A stretch of 64,000 nt of DNA. Source: Xiphophorus maculatus. Its lineage: Eukaryota > Chordata > Actinopteri > Cyprinodontiformes > Poeciliidae. Shown piece by piece: positions 5,531 through 40,900 of the stretch. A model generated the notes under the pieces. The model worked only from the letters and a program-made list of their open reading frames with translations, did no database searches and was not told the origin of the DNA. Position 1 is the stretch's first letter. The number at the start of each line of letters is the position of its first letter. The stretch lies in assembly GCF_002775205.1 (NCBI RefSeq), contig NC_036459.1, forward strand, positions 1,831,088 to 1,895,087, given 5' to 3'. A program made the translations under genes and the position numbers.

Positions 5531-5722
5531 AACTAGAAAATTTCGGAAGAAATTTAGCCGGGGCCTGCCAAGGCGCGCCCGTCGGGCATGGGCCCGGCGT
5601 CGTCGCGCCACAAATCGGCGTCGACGCCAAAGGACGCCGCGACGTGATCAGTGGCACGCGGAGAACCGCAAGAACGTTAAGCGAGGCGGACGTGCACCGT
5701 TCGGTACGATTTAAAATGTTGT
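5531..5722 (+). repeat. Composite repeat, CpG-rich head module, copy 1
   Basis: This ~190-bp block is extremely CpG-rich in a low-GC neighbourhood. It starts AACTAGAAAATTTCGG and leads straight into the 129-bp satellite. Near-identical blocks start at 8,027 and 11,107. Copy 1 differs by a few substitutions (for example GCCGG where the others have GACGG). A plus-strand frame is open through all three copies, but nothing shows that it is translated. Confidence 0.85.
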
Positions 5723-7208
5723 CAAGGCTTTTATTTTGGAAGTTTTGTTAACCTTCATTTCAAAGGGCCAAACTAATCCCATGCGTAATAGTCCTTGGGT
5801 TAAAATAGTTATATAATGCTCAAAACACAAGTAGCTGATGTAAAAATATTCAAGGCTTTTATTTTGAAATTTTCAGTATGCTTCATTTCAAAGGGCCAAA
5901 CTAATACCACGTGTAACAGTGCTTTGGATGAAAAAGTCAAATAAAGCCAAAAAGAGCAATTACGTCATGTAAAATTATTCAAGGCTTTTATTTTGAAATT
6001 TTCAGAATGCTTCATTTCAAAGGGCCAAACTAATACCACGTGTAACAGTGCTTTGGATGAAAAAGTCAAATAAAGCCAAAAAGAGCAATTACCTGATGTA
6101 AAAATATTCAAGGCTTTTATTTTGAAATTATTATTATGCTCCATTTTAAAGTTCCAAACTAATCCCATGTGTAACAGTGCTTTGGATGAAAAAGTCATAT
6201 AAAGCCAAAAACAGCAATTACCTGATGTAAAAATATTCAAGGCTTTTATTTTGAAATTTTCAGTATGCTTCATTTCAAAGTTCCAAAGTAATCCCATGTG
6301 TAACAGTGCTTTGGATGAAAACGTCAAATAAAGCCAAAAACAGCAATTACCTGATGTAAAAATATTCAAGGCTTTTATTTTGAAATTATTATTATGCTCC
6401 ATTTTAAAGTTCCGAACTAATCCCATGTGTAACATTGCTTTGGATGAAAAAGTCATATACGGCCAAAAAGAGCAATTACTTCATGTAAAATATTCAAGGC
6501 TTTTATTTTGAAATTTTCAGTATGCTTCATTTTAAAGTTCTGAACTAATACCACGTGTAAGAGTGCTTTGGATGAAAAAGTCAAATAAAGCCAAAAAGAG
6601 CAATTACGTCATGTAAAAATATTCAAGGCTTTTATTTTGAAACTTTTGTTAAGCTTCATTTCAAAGGGCCAAACTAATACCACGTGTAACAGTGCTTTGG
6701 ATGAAAAAGTCAAATAAAGCCAAAAAGAGCAATTACATGATGTAAAAATATTCAAGGCTTTAATTTTGAAATTTTTGTTAATATTCATTTCAAAGGGCCA
6801 AACTAATACCATGTGTAACAGTGCTTTGGATGAAAAAGTCAAATAAAGCCAAAAAGAGCAATTACGTCATGTAAAAATATTCAAGGCTTTTATTTTGAAA
6901 TTTGCAGGATGCTTCATTTCAAAGGGCCAAACTAATCCCATGCGTAATAGTCCTTCGGTTAAAATAGTTATATAATGCTCAAAACACAAGTAGCTGATGT
7001 AAAAATATTCAAGGCTTTTATTTTGAAATTTTTGTTAAGCTTCATTTTAAAGGGCCAAACTAATACCATGTGTAACAGTGCTTTGGATGAAAAAGTCAAA
7101 TAAAGCCAAAAAAGAGCAATTACGTCATGTAAAAATATTCAGGGCTTTTATTGTGAAATTTTCAATATGCTTAATTTTAAAGTGTAAAACTAATCCCATG
7201 TGTAACAG
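5723..7208. repeat. 129-bp satellite array 1 (~12 monomers)
   Basis: The word CAAGGCTTTTATTTTG recurs at 5723, 5851, 5980, 6109, 6238, 6367, 6495, 6624, 6753, 6882 and 7010, with a variant at 7140. The spacing is therefore 128-130 bp. Each monomer also has conserved words around CATTT(T/C)AAAG, CCATGTGTAACAGTGC and GATGAAAAAGTC. The first monomer is a divergent edge type (with ATAATGCTCAAAACACAAG), and this type reappears inside the array at 6882. That suggests an internal duplication or a fused shorter array. Confidence 0.95.
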
Positions 7209-8026
7209 TTACTGAGTTAAATCAGTTATATACAGCCCAAAGCAGCAAGTAGTTGTAAAGGCCAGTTCTCAGTCCTGATCTGTTTCAACTGAGGATAGAT
7301 AGAACTACAACGATGCGTATTCGTAGTCCTAACCAGCAGCCAATAGCCTCTTGAGTTCCGTTGCTATGGCAAATAATGGTCTCAGCAGGTGTGAGCTCTG
7401 AGCTGTGAGCTCTCAAACACACAAGTGTGTTTGAGCAAACACACTTTACTGAAAAAAAGCATTGGAAACAAATCCTTCTTGTTCGGGAACCGTAATACAT
7501 ATTCGAAAAGCGTTTTAAGCGTATGACAGTTCAATGTGTCTTCTGCGATAGTCCCGAGATTCATATCTGTACCTCACTCAGAGCATTTACAGTGATGAGA
7601 GAAAGAAATGTTGTGCCCAGATATGAACCGAGGTCGGCTGTCACTCTAATATGAGCAAAAATGAGAAACTTTGGGTCGCTTAGAGGCAAATTGTGGACAA
7701 ACCATAACTGGTATCGACGAGCCGTCTTCACTTTCGAAGAGATCACAGACGTATCTACAAAATGAAATTTGAATGGCATTTCTAGGTGAATTTGTGACGA
7801 CACAGCAAATCCTCAAAAATAGGGTATTTCTAGGATTTTTCCCATTGAGTTATAATGGGGTTTTTTTCGTAGTTTTTTGCGAATTATGTCGCCATGTTAA
7901 TCCCGAATCCCACCAAAAGTAATAGCTGGAATGGCGTGAATTTTCTGCACGTTTTGATACCTCTTTTGTAGGTGTGCACGCAGCGGTATGAGCCGCATTA
8001 ACGGTTACGGATGAAAAATAAAGAAT
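7209..8026. repeat. Composite repeat, tail module, copy 1
   Basis: This non-satellite segment of about 820 bp follows array 1. It begins where the monomer word GTAACAGT runs into TACTGAGTTAAATC, and it ends at the next CpG-rich head. It matches 10,215-11,106 and 12,785-13,991 over most of its length. It lacks the terminal CCTGCCAT...ATGGCAGG hairpin found in copies 2 and 3. Short minus-strand open frames of 60-80 codons are shared by the copies, but I recognise no protein family. Confidence 0.85.
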
Positions 8027-8218
8027 AACTAGAAAATTTCGGAAGAAATTTAGACGGGGCCTGCCAAGGCGCGCCCGTGGGGTTCGGGCCCGGCGTCGTC
8101 GCGCCACAAATCGGCGTCGACGCCAAAGAACGCCGCGACGTCACCAGTGGCACGCGGAGAACCGCAAGAACGTTAAGCGAGGCGGACGTGCACCGTTCGG
8201 TACGATTTAAAATGTTGT
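8027..8218 (+). repeat. Composite repeat, CpG-rich head module, copy 2
   Basis: This is nearly identical to the block at 11,107-11,298 and marks the start of the second composite unit. High CpG content survives in every copy. In methylated vertebrate DNA that implies recent amplification, protection from methylation or selection. Confidence 0.85.
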
Positions 8219-10214
8219 CAAGGCTTTTATTTTGGAAGTTTCAGTATGCTTCATTTCAAAGGGCCAAACTAATCCCATGCGTAATAGTCCTTGGGTTAAA
8301 ATAGTTATATAATGCTCAAAACACAAGTAGCTGATGTAAAAGTATTCAAGGCTTTTATTTTGAAATTTTCAGTATGCTTCATTTTAAAGTTCTGAACTAA
8401 TACCACGTGTAAGAGTGCTTTGGATGAAAAAGTCAAATAAAGCCAAAAAGAGCAATTACGTCATGTAAAAATATTCAAGGCTTTTATTTTGAAATTTTCA
8501 GTATGCTTCATTTCAAAGGGCCAAACTAATACCATGTGTAACAGTGCTTTGGATGAAAAAGTCAAATAAAGCCAAAAAGAGCAATTACATGATGTCAAAA
8601 TATTCAAGGCTTTTATTTTGAAATTTTTGTTAATCTTCATTTCAAAGGGCCAAACTAATACCATGTGTAACAGTGCTTTGGATGAAAAAGTCATACAAAG
8701 CCAAAAACAGCAATTGCATGATGTAAAAATATTCAAGGCTTTTATTTTGAAATTATTACTTTGCTCCATTTTAAAGTTCCAAACTAATCCCATGTGTAAC
8801 AGTGCTGTGGATGAAAAAGTCATATACGGCCAAAAAAAGCAATTACATGATGTAAAAATATTCAAGGCTTTTATTTTGAAATTTTCAGTATGCTTCATTT
8901 CAGAGGGCCAAACTAATACCACGTGTAACAGTGCTTTGGATGAAAAAGTCACATAAAGCCAAAAACAGCAATTACCTGATGTAAAAATATTCAAGGCTTT
9001 TATTTTGAAATTATTATTATGCTCCATTTTAAAGTTCCGAACTAATCCCATGTGTAAGAGTGCTTTGGATGAAAAAGTCAAATAAAGCCAAAAAGAGCAA
9101 TTACGTCATGTAAAAATATTCAAGGCTTTTATTTTGAAACTTTTGTTAAGCTTCATTTCAAAGGGCCAAACTAATACCACGTGTAACAGTGCTTTGGATG
9201 AAAAAGTCAAATAAAGCCAAAAAGAGCAATTACATGATGTAAAAATATTCAAGGCTTTTATTTTGAAATTTTTGTTAATATTCATTTCAAAGGGCCAAAC
9301 TAATACCATGTGTAACAGTGCTTTGGATGAAAAAGTCACATAAAGCCAAAAACAGCAATTACCTGATGTAAAAATATTCAAGGCTTTTATTTTGAAATTA
9401 TTATTATGCTCCATTTTAAAGTTCCGAACTAATCCCATGTGTAACATTGCTTCGGATGAAAAAGTCATATACGGCCAAAAAGAGCAATTACGTCATGTAA
9501 AATATTCAAGGCTTTTATTTTGAAATTATTATTCTCCATTTTAAAGTTCCAAACTAATCCCATGTGTAACATTGCTTTGGATGAAAAAGTCATATACGGC
9601 CAAAAAAAGCAATTACCTGATGTAAAAATATTCAAGGCTTTTATTTTGAAATTATTATTATTCTCCATTTTAAAGTTCCAAAGTAATCCCATGTGTAACA
9701 GTGCTTTGGATGAAAACGTCAAATAAAGCCAAAAACAGCAATTACCTGATGTAAAACTATTCAAGGCTTTTATTTTGAAATTATTATTATTCTCCATTTT
9801 AAAGTTCCAAAGTAATCCCATGTGTAACAGTGCTTTGGATGAAAACGTCAAATAAAGCCAAAAACAGCAATTACCTGATGTAAAAATATTCAAGGCTTTT
9901 ATTTTGAAATTATTATTCTCCATTTTAAAGTTCCAAACTAATCCCATGTGTAACATTGCTTTGGATGAAAAAGTCATATACGGCCAAAAAAAGCAATTAC
10001 CTGATGTAAAAATATTCAAGGCTTTTATTTTGAAATTATTATTATTCTCCATTTTAAAGTTCCAAAGTAATCCCATGTGTAACAGTGCTTTGGATGAAAA
10101 CGTCAAATAAAGCCAAAAACAGCAATTACCTGATGTAAAACTATTCAAGGCTTTTATTTTGAAATTATTATTATGCTCCATTTTAAAGTTCCAAACTAAT
10201 CCCATGTGTAACAG
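8219..10214. repeat. 129-bp satellite array 2 (~16 monomers)
   Basis: This is the same monomer family as array 1, here about 16 copies. Sub-families differ by diagnostic words (TTTTCAGTATGCTT, TTATTATTATTCTCC, TTTTTGTTAATATTC). A block of about 384 bp (around 9,520-9,900) is repeated almost exactly at 9,904-10,150, indicating a recent multi-monomer duplication. Long open frames on the minus strand (8,461-9,081 and 9,465-10,205) follow from the period being a multiple of three. Confidence 0.95.
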
Positions 10215-11106
10215 TTACTGAGTTAAATCAGTTATATACAGCCCATAGCAGCAGTAGTTCTAAAGGCCAGTTCTCAGTCCTGATCTGTTTCAACTGAGGA
10301 TAGATAGAACTACAGCGATGCGTATTCGTAGTCCAAATCAGCAGCCAATAGCCTCTTGAGTTCCGTTGCTATGGCAAATAATGGTCTCAGCAGGTGTGAG
10401 CTCTGAGCTGTGAGCTCTCAAACACACAAGTGTGTTTGAGCAAACACACTTTACTGAAAAAAAGCATTGGAAACAAATCCTTCTTGTTCGGGAACCGTAA
10501 TACATATTCGAAAAGCGTTTCGAGCGTATGACAGTTCAATGTGTCTTCTGCGATAGTCCCGAGATTCATATCTGTACCTCACTCAGAGCATTTACAGTGA
10601 TGAGAGAAAGAAATGTTGTGCCCAGATCTGAACCGAGATCGGCTGTCACTGTAATTTCAGCAAAAATGAGAAAGTTTGGGTCGCTTAGAGGCAAATTGTG
10701 GACAAACCGTAACTGGTATCGACGAGCCGTCTTCACTTTCGAAGAGATCACAGACGTATCTACAAAATGAAATTTGAATGGCATTTCTAGGTGAATTTGT
10801 GACGACACAGCAAATCCTCAAAAATAGGGTATTTCTAGGATTTTTCCCATTGAGTTATAATGGGGTTTTTTTCGTAGTTTTTTGCGAATTATGTCGCCAC
10901 GTTAAGCCCAAATCCCACCACAAGTAATAGCTCCAATGGCGTGAATTTTCTGCACGTTTTGATACCTCATTTGTAGGTGTGCACCCAGCGGTACGAGCCG
11001 CATTAACGGTTACGGAAGAAAAATAAAGAATTATAATAATATTAAAGAGACACTTTGTTGGGTGTAGAGTAATAGGTTCCTGCCATTGCTTTGCATGGCA
11101 GGCCCC
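10215..11106. repeat. Composite repeat, tail module, copy 2
   Basis: This matches the tail at 7,209-8,026 and has an extra ~70 bp at its right end: an AT-rich stretch, then TAATAGGTTCCTGCCATTGC and a hairpin ending GGCAGGCCCC. The hairpin lies directly against the next CpG-rich head at 11,107. Confidence 0.85.
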
Positions 11107-11298
11107 AACTAGAAAATTTCGGAAGAAATTTAGACGGGGCCTGCCAAGGCGCGCCCGTGGGGTTCGGGCCCGGCGTCGTCGCGCCACAAATCGGCGTCGA
11201 CGCCAAAGAACGCCGCGACGTCACCAGCGGCACGCGGAGAACCGCAAGAACGTTAAGCGAGGCGGACGTGCACCATTCGGTACGATTTAAAATGTTGT
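11107..11298 (+). repeat. Composite repeat, CpG-rich head module, copy 3
   Basis: This is the third copy of the CpG-rich head. Its GGGGCCTGCCA is the exact reverse complement of TGGCAGGCCCC in the tail end just upstream. Together they can form an 11-bp stem around the short AACTAGAAAATTTCGG spacer. Confidence 0.85.
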
Positions 11299-12784
11299 CA
11301 AGGCTTTTATTTTGGAAGTTTCAGTATGCTTCATTTCAAAGGGCCAAACTAATCCCATGCGTAATAGTCCTTGGGTTAAAATAGTTATATAATGCTCAAA
11401 ACACAAGTAGCTGATGTAAAAGTATTCAAGGCTTTTATTTTGAAATTTTCAGTATGCTCCATTTTAAAGTTCCGAACGAATCCCATGTGTAACAGTGCTT
11501 TGGATAAAAAAGTCACATAAAGCCAAAAAGCGCAATTACCTGATGTAAAAATATGCAAGGCTTTTATTTTGAAATTATTATTATTCTCCATTTTAAAGTT
11601 CCGAACTAATCCCATGTGTAACAGTGCTTTGGATGAAAAAGTCACATAAAGCCAAAAAGCGCAATTACCTGATGTAAAAATATTCAAGGCTTTTATTTTG
11701 AAATTATTATTATTCTCCATTTTAAAGTTCCAAAGTAATCCCATGTGTAACAGTGCTTTGGATGAAAAAGTCATATAAAGCCAAAAACAGCAATTACCTG
11801 ATGTAAAAATATTCAAGGCTTTTATTTTGAAATTATTATTATTCTCCATTTTAAAGTTCCGAACTAATCCCATGTGTAACAGTGCTTTGGATGAAAAAGT
11901 CACATAAAGCCAAAAAGCGCAATTACCTGATGTAAAAATATTCAAGGCTTTTATTTTGAAATTATTATTATGCTCCATTTTAAAGTTCCGAACAAATCCC
12001 ATGTGTAACAGTACTTTGGATGAAAAAGTCATATACGGCCAAAAAGAGCAATTACATGACGTAAAAATATTCAAGGCTTTTATTTTGAAATTTTCAGTAT
12101 GCTTCATTTCAGAGGGCCAAACTATTCCATTGTGTAACAGTGCTTTGGATAAAAAAGTCACATAAAGCCAAAAAGCGCAATTACCTGATGTAAAAATATT
12201 CAAGGCTTTTATTTTGAAATTATTATTATGCTCCATTTTAAAGTTCCGAACTAATCCCATGTGTAACATTGCTTTGGATGAAAAAGTCAAATAAAGCCAA
12301 AAAGAGCAATTACCTGATGTAAAAATATTCAAGGCTTTTATTTTGAAATTATTATTATGCTCCATTTTAAAGTTCCGAACTAATCCCATGTGTAACAGTG
12401 CTTTGGATGAAAAAGTCATATAAAGCCAAAAACAGCAATTACCTGATGTAAAAATATTCAAGGCTTTTATTTTGAAATTATTATTATTCTCCATTTTAAA
12501 GTTCCGAACTAATCCCATGTGTAACATTGCTTTGGATGAAAAAGTCATATACGGCCAATAAGAGCAATTACGTCATGTAAAATATTCAAGGCTTTTATTT
12601 TGAAATTATTATTATGCTCCATTTTAAAGTTCCAAACTAATCCCATGTGTAACATTGCTTTGGATGAAAAAGTCATATACGGCCAAAAAGAGCAATTACG
12701 TCATGTAAAATATTCAAGGCTTTTATTTTGAAATTTTCAGTATGCTTAATTTTAAAGTTCCAAACTAATCCCATGTGTAACAGT
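11299..12784. repeat. 129-bp satellite array 3 (~12 monomers)
   Basis: This third array has about 12 monomers of 128-129 bp. It contains the longest uninterrupted frame, 387 codons on the minus strand (11,385-12,548), nine repeats of 43 residues with cores such as FKIKALNIFTSGNC. I see no splice sites, signal peptide or known domain. The frame is open because the period is 43 codons and the monomer lacks stops in that frame, so I do not call a gene. Confidence 0.95.
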
Positions 12785-13991
12785 TACTGAGTTCAATCAG
12801 TTATATACAGCCCATAGCAGCAGGTAGTTCTAAAGGCCAGTTCTCAGTCCTGATCTGTTTCAACTGAGGATAGATAGAACTACAGCGATGCGTATCTGTA
12901 GTCCAAATCAGCAGCCAATAGCCTCTTGAGTTCCGTTGCTATGGTAAATAATGGTCTCAGCAGGTGTGAGCTCTGAGCGCTGAGCTCTCAAACACACAAT
13001 TGTGTGTTTGAGCAAACACACTTTACTGAAAAAAAGCATTGGAAACAAATCCTTCTTGTTCGGGAACCGTAATACATATTCGAAAAGCGTTTGCAGCGTA
13101 TGACAGTTCAATGTGTCTTCTGCGATAGTCCCGAGATTCATATCTGTACCTCACTCAGAACATTTACAGCGATGAGAGAAAGAAATGTTGTGCCCAGATC
13201 TGAAATTCTATTCAAATACATGGGAGAGAGCCTCAGACAGCCTCAGAAAATCCTGTCGCATGACTTTGCTCTGAAGCACCGTGACAGAAAACCGTACGGT
13301 CTAGATAAATTTCGAAAACATTTTACCGGAGCAGACAGGCGTATCAATGTCAGGACCGATTTTGATACTAATCGTGCGATATTTGTGGGCGTGATGGCGA
13401 TTTCAAAAATGATTTGGGTTGAAAAAGTTGTCTTCATCTCTCACTCTAAGCAGCCAGAAACGCACTCTAACTTGAGCAAAAATGAGAAACTTTGGGTCGC
13501 TTAGAGGCAAATTGTGGACAAACCGTAACTGGTATCGACGAGCCGTCTTCACTTTCGAAGAGATCACAGACGTATCTACAAAATGAAATTTGAATGGCAT
13601 TTCTAGGTGAATTTGTGACGACACAGCAAATCCTCAAAAATAGGGTATTTCTAGGATTTTTCCCATTGAGTTATAATGGGGTTTTTTTCGCAGTTTTTTG
13701 CGAATTATGTCGCCACGTTAAGCCCAAATCCCACCAAAAATAATAGCTCCAATGGCGTGAATTTTCTGCACGTTTTGATACCTCATTTGTAGGTGTGCAC
13801 CCAGCGGTATGAGCCGCATTAACGGTTACGGAAGAAAAATAAAGAAGTATAATAATAAAGAGACGCTTGTTGGGTGTAGAGTAATAGGTTCCTGCCATTG
13901 CTTTGCATGGCAGGCCCCAATAATAATAAAGAAACTTTTCTTGGGAGAATAGCAATAGGTTCCTGCCATTGCTTTGCATGGCAGGCCCCAA
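12785..13991. repeat. Composite repeat, tail module, copy 3 (long form)
   Basis: This copy is homologous to the other tails but carries about 270 extra bp at roughly 13,205-13,475, where copies 1 and 2 have a short, different joint. It ends with two tandem versions of the hairpin (13,856-13,917 and 13,919-13,991). The extra piece lies in a 137-codon plus-strand frame (13,091-13,504) and is also open on the minus strand. Copy 3 may be the fuller ancestral form and copies 1 and 2 deletion derivatives. Confidence 0.8.
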
Positions 13992-15420: not shown

Positions 15421-15461
15421 ATCCTTCTTAAGTAGATTTCCTTTAATTGAGCTCACCAGAT

Positions 15462-16121
15462 GAGGCAAGTGAAGGAGTTCAAGTATCTCAGGATCTTGTT
15501 CACAAATGAGGGAAGAAGGGAGCGGGGGATCGACAGGCGGATTGGCGCAGCGTCTGCCGTCAAGCGGGCGCTGTACCGGTCCATCGTGGTGAAGAGAGAG
15601 CTGAGCCAAAAAGCGAAGCTCTCAATTTACCAGTCGATCTACGTTCCCACCCTCATCTATGGTCATGAGCTTTGGGTCGTGACTGAAAGAACGAGATCGC
15701 GGATACAAGCGGCCGAAATGGGTTTTCTCCGCACTGTGTCTGGGCTCTCCCTTAGAGAGAGAAGCTCAGTCATCCGGGAAGGACTCAGAGTCGAGCCACT
15801 GCTCCTTCACATCGAGAGGAGCCAGTTGAGGTGGCTTGGGCATCTGGTCAGAATGCCTCCTGGACGCCTCCCTGGTGAGGTGTTCCGGGCACGTCCCACC
15901 GGTAGGAGGCCCCGGGGAAGACCCAGGACACGCTGGAGGGACGATGTCTCTCGGCTGGCCTGGGAACGCCTCGGGGTTCCCCCGTAAGAGCTGGAAGAAG
16001 TGGCTGGGGAGAGGGAAGTCTGGGCCTCCCTTCTGAAGCTGCTACCCCCGCGACCCGACCCCGGATAAGCGGAAGAAAATGGATGGATGGATGGATGGAT
16101 GGATGGATGGATGGATGGATG
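15462..16121 (+). mobile_element. 5'-truncated non-LTR retrotransposon (Rex3/RTE-like)
   Basis: A plus-strand frame from 15,460 to 15,987 encodes the C-terminal end of a LINE polyprotein, with FKYLRILFTNEG, the RIGAASAV region, SIYVPTLIYGHELWV and RWLGHLVRMPPGRLP. One premature TAA at 15,985 precedes the natural end near 16,066. The 3' tail is (ATGG)n (about 16,079-16,121). A GATG-type tail is known for fish Rex3 elements, hence the name. The insertion is bounded by a perfect 13-bp target duplication, GAGCTCACCAGAT, at 15,449-15,461 and 16,122-16,134. Confidence 0.85.
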
Positions 16122-20640: not shown

Positions 20641-23588
20641 GAAGCAGCATGGAGCTGCAGCAGCCGTCCACTGGGACAGAACGAATGTCCTCTGATGGTC
20701 ACATGACACATAGTGGTGGGATCTTTGGAGGAGTCCAGGTTGTGAAGCACAGTGGTGACAGCATCATTTGTTTGACTAGAACAGGGTTCTGTTTTCCTGC
20801 AGGACGACGATCCCAAACCGATCCAGACTGAGTGTATAAAGCGGGCCCGGCACCCAGGACTCCAGGACCTGGACTCACTCCTGATGAATCTTTATGAACT
20901 CAGATGTGTGAAGCTTCCAGCCACTAATTTAATGCTCTGTCAGCAGAACCGTTTGGGCCGTGAGCTCAGCGCCTCCCACACACTCACCAGAACCTCTTCC
21001 AGGAAGAGACCTGACTCATGCCGGCTGCAGACACAGGAAGTCTGACTGTTGCTTCATCACCTTTACCCCCAGCTCCACAGATGCTAATGATGCTGCTGTC
21101 CTAACAAGCAGAGCCCAGACTGGAGCAGCACCTTTCCACTCAGCAATACCTGGGAATCCCTCGACTAGCTGATGGTTCTGATGGGGCCCGCTGAATTCAA
21201 GCATCTTACTGATGGGACACTCCTGCCACAATTTGCAGTCCTTCCAGGATTTAGTTGTGTTTTTTTTGGAATAAAAATCCAAAGTTTTGACATCAGGGAA
21301 TATCTCTCCAGTTGACTAGACGTTCAATGAGGGCCGGCTGGAGGAAATCCAGCGTTTGCGTGTTGATGCTCTCCTGCATCAACGCACTCCGGGTCATAAC
21401 TCTGCAGCGCTCCATGAGCTCCAGGATGCTTTTAATCCAGACCAGAGATGATACACACACAAGAATTTTCTTTTTGCTTTAGTCATTTGTTCTCAGTGCG
21501 TAAAATTAAAAATGTTAGCACCATGTGGACTGAAATCTGTCAAAATGACAGATGGCCTTCAGATTTTTCGTCAAAGGCTAAAAATATTCCGCCTGAGAAA
21601 ACGTAATAAATTCTGCCTCCTGCAGGTGGGAGGTAGCAACGCTAAGCCCACTGATTTTGAGTATTGCAGCAGAAAACTTATAATAAACTCATAATTATGC
21701 ATTAGCACAAAAGCACGCGCAGATCTGTTGATCCCGCGTTAATTTAAGCAACCAAGGACAGAAAACCTTGACAGGGAGGGAACTGGAACGGGTCCAGGAC
21801 AGAATCAAAGACCAGATCCAGAACCAAATGGTTCTGTTACATCTAACGCCCTGAGCTGCTTTCATCTGTTTTCCTCCACGTTGACCTCTGACCTCACCAG
21901 ATTCATGGCTCTCTTCTCCTATAGAAACTGCTTATGGGACAATCAGAATTCGATTTCTGTTCTCTCCAACTCACCGTCAGTCACAGGACTGGTTCTGGTT
22001 CTACTGACAGTCTCTATTTAAAGCCAAGTTGTTCCTTTCTGCTGTTTCCATGTGTTTGGTGAGGATGAGATATTTCTGCAGTCAATATCTTTTCCAGACT
22101 CCAGCAGACAAATGAACATCTGGGAAGAGATCAGAGCTCTGGACTTTCTTATCCTCAAACATCTCTGTCTTCTTCAGATTTATCATCATCTGGTGATAAA
22201 AACTGGGCTTGTTTCAGCTTCTGTGCAGCGAGCTGAAACAACATCATGAACATCAATGATGAAAGGTTTATTTTCCATCTCAAGCTGGATGAATGAAGTC
22301 CGGCTTCAATCCCACCCAGCACCATTCCCAGGACTTCACGCAGGATTTCCCACATCAACAGGTTGGGATTGAAGGTAAATCCAGCCACCTCTGATATGCC
22401 GACATCTGGATCAGACAAGGGAGAGCTGACTCGGAACCAGCTCGCCTCCCACGGGTCTGCAGACCTTCACAGACCAATAAGAAGTCTCTACTGGCTGATT
22501 TGTTTTGAACAGAGTGAAACTCGTTCACATCAACCTCAGCTCTGCAGGTGAGCTTTAAATGTCACTAGTAGCAGCTCATCAGACGACTCATCACATCTTT
22601 TCACACCTCATCTTGATCAACGCTGCAAACAGACCAGAGGGCCAAATTAGCTCCCAGTGGGGCTGAACGTTCAGGTAAATAAATGCTTCATGGCAGCACT
22701 TCCTCACAGCTGTCAGTTTGCTCTCAACAATTCCTGAAGAAAACTGTTGGTCCAGGGTCCAGGTCACATCAACTTTCCCTAAGAACTGTTCTCACTCCAG
22801 TTCCAGAATGCTATCGGGATGTTCCGACCTCTGGAGGCCGACAAAGTGCTTCAGCTTTAGGAGGGCTGCAGGAACGCTCTGGATCCTGGAGGGTGAAGGA
22901 ACACTCCGGATCCCAGAGGATACGGAGACGTTCCAGTTCCAGGACAATGCATCATGGTCCGGCCTCGGCACGTAGCTGATCTGTTTCAGTTTCAGGTTGG
23001 TCACAATGAGCAGCTACCTGGTGTGATGTTAATGCCACTTTAATTTATGGCCTGATTGTCTCCTGCTGGTTGATCAACAAGCTGTGACCTTCTGCCAGCT
23101 GTCGGCCTTAATGTGAGCAGACAAGTAGTCAAAGTTCACCAGCTAAGCATCTCATTATTTCATTATTCAGCCTGAATGTCATTTATGAACCATCAACCTT
23201 AATGCTCATCAAGCATAAACGAGACCAACTGAACCCATCAGGGAGAAACTCTTGTTGAAGCAGGAATTAGAGAATAAATCCAGGAAGTCCTTGATGATCA
23301 ATAAGAGTCCAAGAGGGATCTGACAAGAACTGAGAGGAATGAGACCTTAATCACTCATTTCTAGCCAACATGATGGAACATTTCTAAGACCACTACAGAC
23401 ATTTTAAAGGACCAGCGTTTGTGACTGACTGCCATCAAGTGGCCAAGGTGGGGAGTGCCCAGACGTGAAACTGGACTAGTTACATGTAAACAACAATAAC
23501 GTGAACGGATCCAAAACAGAGAAAATAAGAATGGACAGAGACTTATGACAGAAAACCTAAAAAAAGTCTGAATTGTAATAAAGCTCAA
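20641..23588. other. Intergenic, no gene recognised
   Basis: Only short frames without family resemblance occur here. The region has no obvious repeat array or CpG-rich promoter. Confidence 0.5.
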
Positions 23589-23599
23589 CCATTTCGGCC

Positions 23600-24040
23600 A
23601 GGTGCAAGCGGCCGAAATGGGTTTTCTCTGTAGGGTGTCTGGGCTCTCCCTTAGAGAGAGAAGCTCGGTCATCCGGGAGGGACTCAGAGTAGAGCCGCTG
23701 CTCCTTCACATTGAGAGGAGCCAGTTGAGGGTCATCTGGTCAGGACGCCTCCTGGACGCCTCCCTGGTGAGGAGTTCATGTCCCACCAGGAGGAGGGGAA
23801 AACCCAGGACATGCTGGAGGGACGATGTTTCTCAGCTGGCCTGGGAACGCCTTGGGATTCCCCCTGGAAGAGCTGGAACATGTGGCTGGGAGAGGAAAGT
23901 CTGGGCCTCCCTTTTTAAGTTGAGATCCCCTCGACCCGACCCCGGATAAGTAATAAGTAAGGAAGTAAGGGAGGGAGGGAGGGAGGGAGGGAGGGATGGA
24001 TGGATGGATGGATGGATGGATGGATGGATGGATGGATGGA
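23600..24040 (+). mobile_element. Second Rex3/RTE-like LINE fragment with ATGG tail
   Basis: It resembles the 3' part of the LINE at 15,462-16,121, starting at the AAEMGF...SGLSLRERSSVIREG region and ending at the PRPDPG stop. A small deletion near 23,725 shifts the frame, so it is a dead copy. The 3' tail mixes (GGGA)n and (ATGG)n from about 23,965 to 24,040. The left junction has an 11-bp inverted repeat, CCATTTCGGCC (23,589-23,599) against GGCCGAAATGG (23,610-23,620). Confidence 0.8.
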
Positions 24041-27810: not shown

Positions 27811-27934
27811 TTTGGAGGAACAGAACCGTGACTATTATGGGGCCCGTTTGGTGAGTCGTTTAACCTTTCATAAGAGCAAGTCATATTATTACTATGTTAT
27901 TCAATCTTTTACAAATGTCAAAGTAATAAACTAC

Positions 27935-28140
27935 ATTTTTAGTTAGCTAGTCAAATATTTAGCCTAGAGCTAAATATTTAAAAATTACCTAAATATATAA
28001 CTAAAATATTTAGGTAATATGCAACTAAATATTTAGCTTGAAGCTAACTAGCTACATTCCTAAATCGATATCTAGTTATGATCTTGCCAAATATTTAGTT
28101 TGGCCAACAATATTACCTAAATATTGAGAGCTAAATATGT
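27935..28140. repeat. AT-rich palindromic TAAATATTTA cluster
   Basis: The stretch repeats variants of GCTAAATATTTAG and CCTAAATATTTAGG, many self-complementary. Similar words occur at 31,715-31,862 and 52,505-52,605. It is probably a degenerate simple repeat or MITE interior. Confidence 0.55.
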
Positions 28141-31004: not shown

Positions 31005-31714
31005 AACGGAACCAGAACCAGCTCAGACCAACTGGATCTTCCTCCTGCCAAATGCGGAGACGCTCCTCTTCCTCCTCCCCTGGGAGAACAGAGCCTCCTC
31101 TGTTGAGGCTCCGCTGCCTCATTGGCGGCTGCTGACAGCCGGTGTCATCAGAATCGGATTTGTGGGCCCGGTTATCACCGGGTCATGCTGGCTGGTTCTG
31201 GGAGCGGCCCGGCTTCAAACGGACCGGTTCCTTAGAGCTCTGCTGTGACTGATGGCAACCTTTATGAAACTCAATCAACATCAGATCACCATGCTCTCAG
31301 GGGCCGCTCGGCCGCAGTACCGCGCTGCGGCCACCAGGGGCCACTGTTTCTCCTCGAGGCTTCCGGCCTGTTTAACATTTGGAACATTAACAGCGATGTG
31401 TTTCTGTGAAAACTGGAAAAATGTTGGGATGTTTGGTTCGGATTCTTCAGGGAACGTTTAGGTTCTGGTTAGTCTGAGCAATTTGATGTAACTGAAACAG
31501 CACCCTCTGCTGGCCACACCTAACATCTTGTAAGTTACTTTTGGATAGTTTTTTTGTCTCTTCAGTAAATTATGAATTTATTCACACAATGCCCATTAAC
31601 CCTGAGTCTACGGTGCCTCATCGCTGCCAAAACTCGTCACATAGCCGAGTTGGAGAGCAGGTGTGAGGTTGGCTAAGCAGTTAGCGAGCTAAAGCTTACA
31701 AACTGAAACTACAC
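31005..31714. other. Intergenic, no gene recognised
   Basis: Plain intergenic sequence. No supported exon or repeat. Confidence 0.45.
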
Positions 31715-31862
31715 ATTTATCTTGAAGCTAAATATTTAATTAGCAAATCAAATATTTAGCTTCAAACTAAATATTTCGATTGGAGCTAAATATTTAGTTT
31801 TTTTGCTCCAAAATATGTGGAGCTAAACTTTCCAACTAAATATTTAGTTAGCAAGTTAAGGC
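31715..31862. repeat. AT-rich palindromic TAAATATTTA cluster, second
   Basis: Repeats of GCTAAATATTTAG and AACTAAATATTTAG alternate in both orientations. The words match the cluster at 27,935-28,140. Confidence 0.55.
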
Positions 31863-33550: not shown

Positions 33551-38887
<5,337 letters not shown>

Positions 38888-39940: not shown

Positions 39941-40610
39941 GTGAGTAGATCGGTTTCTCCGGGGAGACAATGAAGGGCTGGAGGGCGGAATGATCGCTTT
40001 GTGGGATGTTAGTGACCGACTGCAGCTAACGGAACCGGGCCGAGACACACAGAACTAAATAACACTTAGAAACTCCTGTGTCTGTCGGTTGGTACTGGCT
40101 CTGCTTGAACTCCGGGCTGGTTTGAGCCCATCTGACCGCCTCTGGTTCCTACAGCAGCAGGTAAACCAGCTAGCCGCAGTCAGCTCGCTGTGTTTGGGCA
40201 AAAGTTTTAGTTTTCAGCCGTGATTCTGCGGCCTGAGAGGCTGATGGGGTGTTGATCCAGAGAGGGGACCTTGATCCAGCTGTCCGGCTCTGGTTGAACA
40301 TGGAGGCCGATGTTTTCTCTGTTTACTGACGGTAAGCCCGGCAGTAAATGCCATGCTGCAGGTGTTGGCACCGTGTTGCATCATGTTGCTGTTAAAGCGA
40401 TCCGTCTGTCCTGCCCGTCATCCAGAAACACGATCCGAACCGAACATCGACTGTCAGTAACTTCTGATCATATCCATAGTACCAACTACCGCGAACCGTC
40501 CAGAACCGGCGGTTAGAATCAGTGCAACAGTCCGCCTAAAGACCACAGAGTCCGGGATAAACAAAGTACCGGAGGCCGCTGACCCACCGGACACTTAGTA
40601 CTAACTGCAA

Positions 40611-40900
40611 ACTGTCATTAACTACCAATACAGGCTAGTAACTGTCATTAACTACCAATACAGGCTAGTAACTGTCATTAACTACCAATACAAGCTAATA
40701 ACTGTCATTAACTACCAATACAGGCTAGTAACTGTCATTAACTACCAATACAGGTTAGTAACTGTCATTAACTACCAATACAAGCTAATAACTGTCATTA
40801 ACTACAAACAGGCTAGTAACTGTCATTAACTACCAATACAGGCTAGTAACTGTCATTAACTACCAATACAGGCTAGTAACTGTCATTAACTACCAGTAGA
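40611..40900. repeat. 30-bp minisatellite in XPOT intron 1
   Basis: About ten units of ACTGTCATTAACTACCAATA plus ten more bases repeat head to tail. Units 3 and 6 share the variant ending CAAGCTAATA while the others end CAGGCTAGTA or similar, suggesting a 90-bp higher-order period. One unit is 2 bp short near 40,805. Confidence 0.95.

Follow-up and report, generated by a model that had tools for sequence, protein, structure and literature searches.

The segment at positions 5,531-13,991 of a 64-kb stretch of Xiphophorus maculatus DNA (contig NC_036459.1; the whole 64 kb is referred to as the window) is, with good probability, made up of three stacked non-autonomous Helentrons (HINEs) that share the minus strand and each carry an internal satellite of 129-bp monomers. 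Two of these HINEs have probably inserted into the third, older one within its T-rich 5' region, and would have split it into a main part at one edge of the array and a short terminal module at the other. We take the locus to be a new example of a kind of HINE that is already known.

A tandem-repeat search and a BLAST self-comparison placed the heads of three units at 5,531, 8,027 and 11,107, exactly where an earlier note on this DNA had put them, and a plain head-to-head parse gives unit lengths of 2,496, 3,080 and 2,885 bp, in agreement with the sizes of about 2.5, 3.1 and 2.9 kb quoted there. Each head consists of ~190 bp of 60% GC sequence with a CpG observed/expected ratio of 1.71-1.74, as against 0.58 window-wide, and leads into a satellite array and then a tail, by which we mean the sequence beyond the last monomer. 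Over 195 aligned sites, the heads of units 2 and 3 differ at 2 positions, those of units 1 and 2 at 8 and those of units 1 and 3 at 10. The tails had been called unique in the earlier note; they are instead common to the units, with BLAST pieces that are 95.6-97.0% identical and differences of 1.6-7.5% across the three segments that all units possess. The overall difference between units is ~1-7%, varying by segment, and since the units differ from one another, a simple assembly duplication is unlikely.

The three units are real, but they do not amount to the plain triplication that the description as a three-copy tandem repeat implied. A 71-bp module found at the tail ends is absent from tail 1, occurs once in tail 2 and twice in tail 3, and unit 1 is probably split. 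Tail 3 also holds a stretch of ~258 bp (13,205-13,462, minus strand), exclusive to the left module of unit 3, at a place where tails 1 and 2 have ~14 nt. No further copy of the head, tail or satellite was found in the 64-kb window by BLAST at an E of 0.01.

Termini of the units

Read 5' to 3' on the minus strand, a complete unit opens with GGGGCCTGCCATGCAAAGCAATGGCAGG, made up of the 5' subterminal inverted repeat (subTIR) and an 8-bp hairpin, and continues through a T-rich stretch, the remainder of the left module, the satellite and the right module. The right module runs from the other subTIR, TGGCAGGCCCC, through the palindrome AAATTTC-TTCC-GAAATTT to TCTAG and then T residues. The left module totals ~0.85-1.1 kb and the CpG-rich right module ~190 bp. 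The functional orientation is most likely that of the minus strand, and the earlier note would have read the units backwards. The left module also holds a hairpin-forming palindrome, at 7,412-7,446, 10,417-10,451 and 12,987-13,012, which is perfect over 26 bp in unit 3.

Both subTIRs are 11 nt long, the 5' one (GGGGCCTGCCA) lying 0-2 nt and the 3' one (TGGCAGGCCCC) 27 nt from their respective ends. In the three 5' modules the hairpin arms CCTGCCAT and ATGGCAGG enclose an 8-nt loop, and 7 of the 8 nt of the first arm fall inside the 11-nt subTIR, while the 3' palindrome has 7-bp arms and stands 5 nt from the CTAG end in all three units. On the minus strand, the 3' terminal CTAG of unit 1 is at 5,533-5,536, with TTTT following on the host side (equivalents at 8,029-8,032 and 11,109-11,112), its palindrome is at 5,538-5,555 (8,034-8,051 and 11,114-11,131) and its 3' subTIR TGGCAGGCCCC at 5,560-5,570 (8,056-8,066 and 11,136-11,146). 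The 5' ends, each with subTIR and hairpin and again on the minus strand, lie at 11,079-11,106 for unit 2, at 13,891-13,918 for unit 3 (GGGGCCTGCCA with CCTGCCAT/ATGGCAGG) and at 13,962-13,989 for the outer HINE, where the host flank is TTTTT. If the units are HINEs, the element termini are CTAG and GGGGCCTGCC, flanked by TTTTT and TTTT beside the outer copy and by TT at each inner junction. When folded as single-stranded DNA, all three right ends have the palindrome in their best structure, and all three left ends have the hairpin.

This anatomy can be written as an end grammar: TT, a 10-mer subTIR with an inverted repeat, the reverse complement of that 10-mer 0.3-6 kb further on, a 7-bp palindrome and TT. 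Scanned over the local 10 kb, it gave 12 matches on the minus strand and none on the plus strand. Any match at all appeared in 5 of 1000 random first-order sequences modelled on the local 10 kb and in 1 of 300 modelled on the window, which supersedes a smaller control (0 of 20 random sequences); because the grammar was composed after the ends were known, these figures indicate how rare it is and do not test it independently.

The features assembled here are those of HINEs as portrayed by Thomas et al. (2014; PMC4067079), in whose account HINEs and DINE-1 are non-coding, have subTIRs and a 3' palindrome, and insert into T-rich sequence with at least two T at each end and no other change to the target. 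Some HINE copies contain central repeats, and in DINE-1 the 5' side of the 5' inverted repeat lies within the subTIR (PMC4067079). The units described here share with those elements both subTIRs, the nested 5' inverted repeat, the 3' palindrome, central tandem repeats between two modules, T-rich flanks and a non-coding character; they differ in a slightly shorter spacing at the 3' end and in that three copies are stacked, and the likeness is one of anatomy. For the HINEs of a mite, the same source gives a 5' subTIR 2-4 nt and a 3' subTIR 38-60 nt from the ends, a palindrome 8-35 nt from the end and subTIRs of 12-15 nt, and for one family it sets a subTIR length of at least 11 nt (PMC4067079).

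Two other classes of element fit less well. Canonical Helitrons (Helitron1) start with 5' TC, finish with 3' CTRR and insert between A and T; the 3' CTAG followed by T fits this scheme, whereas at the 5' side the units have a T flank and then begin with GGGG. Miniature inverted-repeat transposable elements and other cut-and-paste transposons have inverted repeats at their very ends and a target duplication of fixed length, whereas here one repeat lies 27 nt inside the end. The shared flanks, which are AAAA at the outer ends, AATAA at the split in unit 1 and AA around each inner unit taken alone, are of unequal lengths but lie in A/T-rich sequence.

Probable nesting of two units inside a third

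In the nested parse, all of it on the minus strand, the main part of the outer HINE (unit 1) occupies 5,531-8,026 and comprises the 3' module, a 12-monomer satellite and a left module that lacks its 5' terminal part. Units 2 (8,027-11,106; 16 monomers) and 3 (11,107-13,918; 12 monomers and the long version of the left module) are inner HINEs with both ends complete. The remaining module at 13,919-13,991, with a 5' subTIR and hairpin of its own, is probably the displaced 5' terminal module of the outer HINE, and it rejoins cleanly to 8,026. On this reading unit 3 ends at 13,918, and the last part of what the earlier note had included in it goes to unit 1.

The rejoining can be followed base by base. 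Once 8,027-13,918 is removed, position 8,026 of unit 1 abuts the outermost module at 13,919. The sequence so joined matches unit 3 at 106 of 118 positions, and the only gaps are at the ends of the alignment; unit 2 is matched at 107 of 118, with 4 internal gaps among a total of 7. The outermost module is identical to each inner module at 62 of 70 positions, while the inner modules match each other at 68 of 70; the opposite would be expected had the extra module arisen by local duplication within unit 3. The distal tail, with 8, 2 and 1 private changes in units 1, 2 and 3, and the head, with 8, 0 and 2, also set unit 1 apart from the other two. Read in the sense of the element, the T-richest 30-mer of unit 2 (20 of 30 T) begins 58 nt from the 5' end and spans the point equivalent to the split. 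Units 1 and 2 have a short version of the left module in common and unit 3 carries the long one, so that units 2 and 3 probably derive from different donor copies and arrived as two insertions; conversion from unit 1 is a possible alternative origin of the shared short version.

The earlier note had offered rolling-circle (Helitron-like) concatemers as one of three origins. The rolling-circle mobile element has held up as the best supported of the three, more exactly as a Helentron of the HINE type, but the concatemers have not fared well, because nested insertion jointly explains the module missing from unit 1 and the extra one after unit 3, and because units 2 and 3 hold different versions of the left module. 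A single rolling-circle read-through past the 3' terminator, inserting a three-copy HINE concatemer in one event, would account for the perfect head-to-tail order and for the exact joining, across TT, of a 3' end to a 5' end between units 3 and 2. It is nevertheless unlikely, given that the units differ by ~1-7% according to segment, that the left module of unit 3 departs from the short version common to units 1 and 2, and that the missing and surplus 5' modules would require further events. Many plant Helitron arrays ascribed to partial rolling-circle copying, moreover, had multiple 5' ends and a single 3' end (PMC12628747), whereas all three 3' ends are intact here. Stepwise insertion at T tracts on the same strand explains the head-to-tail order better than one rolling-circle concatemer.

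Several observations weigh against the interpretation of the array as nested HINEs. With a 3' subTIR 27 nt and a palindrome 5 nt from the end, and with subTIRs of 11 nt, the units lie at or just outside the ranges of the mite HINEs, and the individual folds of the ends are only moderately better than those of shuffled sequences (z -1.4 to -3.1). The window outside the array also yielded grammar matches, one on the plus strand and three on the minus strand. Unit 1 is not the odd one out everywhere: the private changes of units 1, 2 and 3 number 4, 0 and 7 in the proximal tail (with 2 sites at which all differ) and 2, 3 and 2 in the mid-tail. The comparison of terminal modules covers 70 nt, and the T profile covers unit 2 of the three, in which the next best 30-mers, located in the satellite, have 19 T. 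The flanks share AATAA at the split and AAAA at the outer ends, both in A/T-rich simple sequence, which leaves room for a target duplication, up to 5 bp long (AATAA) at the former and 4 bp (AAAA) at the latter; the split falls within an AAT/ATT repeat, and its exact place is therefore uncertain. A rolling-circle dimer would equally account for the TT between units 2 and 3. Finally, the mobility of the units is read from their sequence organization, and neither another copy nor an autonomous partner was seen in the window.

The central satellite and other features of the window

An anchor search allowing up to three mismatches gave 42 places in the window. Forty of them lie in the array, at a spacing of 126-130 bp and divided into 12, 16 and 12, which bears out the ~129-bp monomers and their approximate numbers as first described, and two isolated places at 36,471 and 47,822 were taken as chance. 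The central satellites, on the minus strand and with approximate right edges, span 5,722-7,261 in unit 1, 8,218-10,267 in unit 2 and 11,298-12,837 in unit 3, and have a GC content of 30-31%. Mean monomer identity is 85-87%, within and between units alike. The first monomers of the three arrays cluster together (95-100%), joined by one interior monomer, number 10 of unit 1, and the last monomers cluster as well (88-94%). The interiors are shuffled, with monomer 7 of unit 1 exactly equal to monomer 2 of unit 2 and monomer 8 of unit 1 exactly equal to monomer 8 of unit 2, and unit 2 contains a recent three-monomer repeat in which monomers 11 and 12 recur as 14 and 15. Since the edge monomers group by position and the interiors do not, the whole unit would appear to have been copied and its inner monomers turned over afterwards. 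Monomer 10 of unit 1, at 6,881-7,008, is of a type otherwise exclusive to first monomers and is perhaps the trace of an exchange within or between arrays.

The shuffled interiors and the three-monomer duplication in unit 2 are also what would be expected had a HINE dimer been enlarged to three units by unequal crossing-over in the satellite, and the uneven distribution of private changes over the four segments hints at mosaic units. That unevenness is suggestive but not significant (chi-square p 0.056, permutation p 0.055), and unequal crossing-over would have copied the junctions, yet the two internal junctions differ, one having the 5' module and the other lacking it. We therefore consider this origin of the third unit very improbable, although unequal exchange may have acted later on the satellite interiors.

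A minus-strand reading frame through the satellite is open for up to 395 amino acids. Across the 32 of 40 monomers used, however, the minor-allele cells at codon positions 1, 2 and 3 number 127, 82 and 44 and the variable columns 12, 12 and 7, so that third positions vary least, the reverse of what coding sequence shows, and a protein-coding satellite was rejected. The long open frames look like a by-product of a 129-bp period that is divisible by three. Among ten frames scanned against Pfam, five satellite frames matched at E 0.1 or better and five had no match. Some of the matches exceeded the curated whole-protein score (DUF4752 with up to 58.1 bits, Gp54 with up to 57.8 bits), but they are taken as sums over repeats because no single stretch passed alone in any such case. 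In another set of ten frames, the two that lie inside the units had no Pfam match.

The earlier note had also proposed a tandem array of a non-coding transcription unit, which is not needed to explain the locus. In this scheme the array would be a macrosatellite in which a CpG-rich head serves as promoter and the tail resembles a polyadenylation region, and the head CpG observed/expected ratio of ~1.7 and the AATAAA words in many monomers and at the tail ends would suit it. The paired subTIRs, the hairpins, the T flanks and the split outer unit are left unexplained, however, no Rfam family reaches its gathering score in the region, and the satellite frame on the minus strand shows its third-position minimum. 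Of all the origins considered, this one we find the hardest to credit.

Elsewhere in the window, the sole Rfam match is a SNORA68 small nucleolar RNA at 37,150-37,280 on the minus strand (60.2 bits), far from the array, and no tRNA was found in the window. Its genes and frames include RtcB, an Xpo1-domain gene, a FAD-domain frame and a LIM-domain frame. Two reading frames at 15,451-15,987 and 23,572-23,949 both contain GLSLRERSSVIREGLRVEPLLLHIERSQLR and have no Pfam match; we take them to be likely remnants of one retrotransposon family. The grammar matches outside the array fall in stretches near 28.0-28.1 and 31.7 kb that are rich in the palindromic word AAATATTTAG. These stretches, at 27,930-28,140 and 31,700-31,860, are ~3.6 kb apart and in parts mutually inverted, and may mark the termini of a further repeat or be simple clusters of AT-rich sequence. 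At 40,610-40,895 there is a separate minisatellite, with 9.6 copies of a 30-bp repeat.

Relation to known systems and a proposed route of array growth

To regard the composite as unlike known repeats would go too far, since HINEs have been described with satellite-like arrays at their centre (PMC4067079, PMC7492417). The HINEs of the oyster Crassostrea gigas likewise carry satellite monomers between a left and a right module (PMC7492417, PMC8268682); those monomers are mostly 160-180 bp, as against ~129 bp here, and the Cg170 arrays average about six monomers, as against 12-16. Drosophila DINE-1 and DINE-TR1 are also of the Helentron type with central tandem repeats, a likeness drawn from their description, and the title of the DINE-TR1 paper names satellite emergence. 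In the teleost Harttia, HduSat17-150 is tied to a Helitron, as the satellite here probably is, but it is reported as a satellite and its name implies a 150-bp monomer (PMC11955569).

Parallels to the stacking itself come from other transposons. In Drosophila melanogaster, according to a 2025 review, insertion-site preference appears to be the major route to transposon dimers (McGurk and Barbash 2018, cited in PMC12628747), and there too tandem copies arise by repeated insertion at preferred sites; what differs is that here a HINE would have landed in the T-rich end of its own kind. With its three intact 3' ends, the locus fits this route better than that of the plant arrays with multiple 5' ends and one 3' end. 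Bat and maize Helitrons have been found directly beside other Helitrons (PMC4067079), a similar case of neighbouring or abutting rolling-circle insertions, but those are distant relatives, whereas the copies here are near relatives in one orientation, with one of them split.

Among the matches listed in a literature search whose scope left subscription papers largely outside, no title or abstract opening announced a teleost HINE with this full structure, and no title described nested head-to-tail stacking of Helentrons. Patterns for the 5' hairpin end, the 3' end, a tail stretch and the satellite had no exact match in viral contigs, and those for the 5' hairpin end and the satellite had none in prokaryotic genome contigs; such blanks say little because the collections are viral and prokaryotic, not fish, and matches had to be exact.

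We propose that a Rep/helicase supplied in trans by an autonomous Helentron would nick the 5' end of a unit, that a single strand would be displaced through the satellite until termination at the 3' palindrome and CTAG, and that this strand would then be inserted beside T residues. Units 2 and 3 would have entered the T-rich stretch near the 5' end of unit 1 in such steps. As it is the element's own strand that is T-rich at the target, a copy that landed there, or in the TT left at a junction, would take the same orientation, and repeated landings of this kind would build up a head-to-tail array. Slippage or unequal exchange within the units would subsequently alter the number of satellite monomers, leaving those at the edges in place.

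This reading explains a composite tandem repeat that would otherwise resemble an odd macrosatellite, and it makes the locus an easily read example of a head-to-tail array that seems to owe more to nested insertion than to the formation of concatemers. New satellite DNA has been proposed to arise, among other ways, by tandem-repeat expansion within elements of this sort (PMC12628747). We put forward, more tentatively than the HINE assignment itself, that the T-rich run just inside the 5' module might act as the element's own landing pad on the same strand, a preferred target for further HINEs. If this were true, arrays would be extended step by step and invariably in head-to-tail order, without recourse to rolling-circle concatemers or unequal crossing-over. 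They would gain a satellite block at each round, and in this way a dispersed transposon could turn into a complex, higher-order vertebrate satellite.

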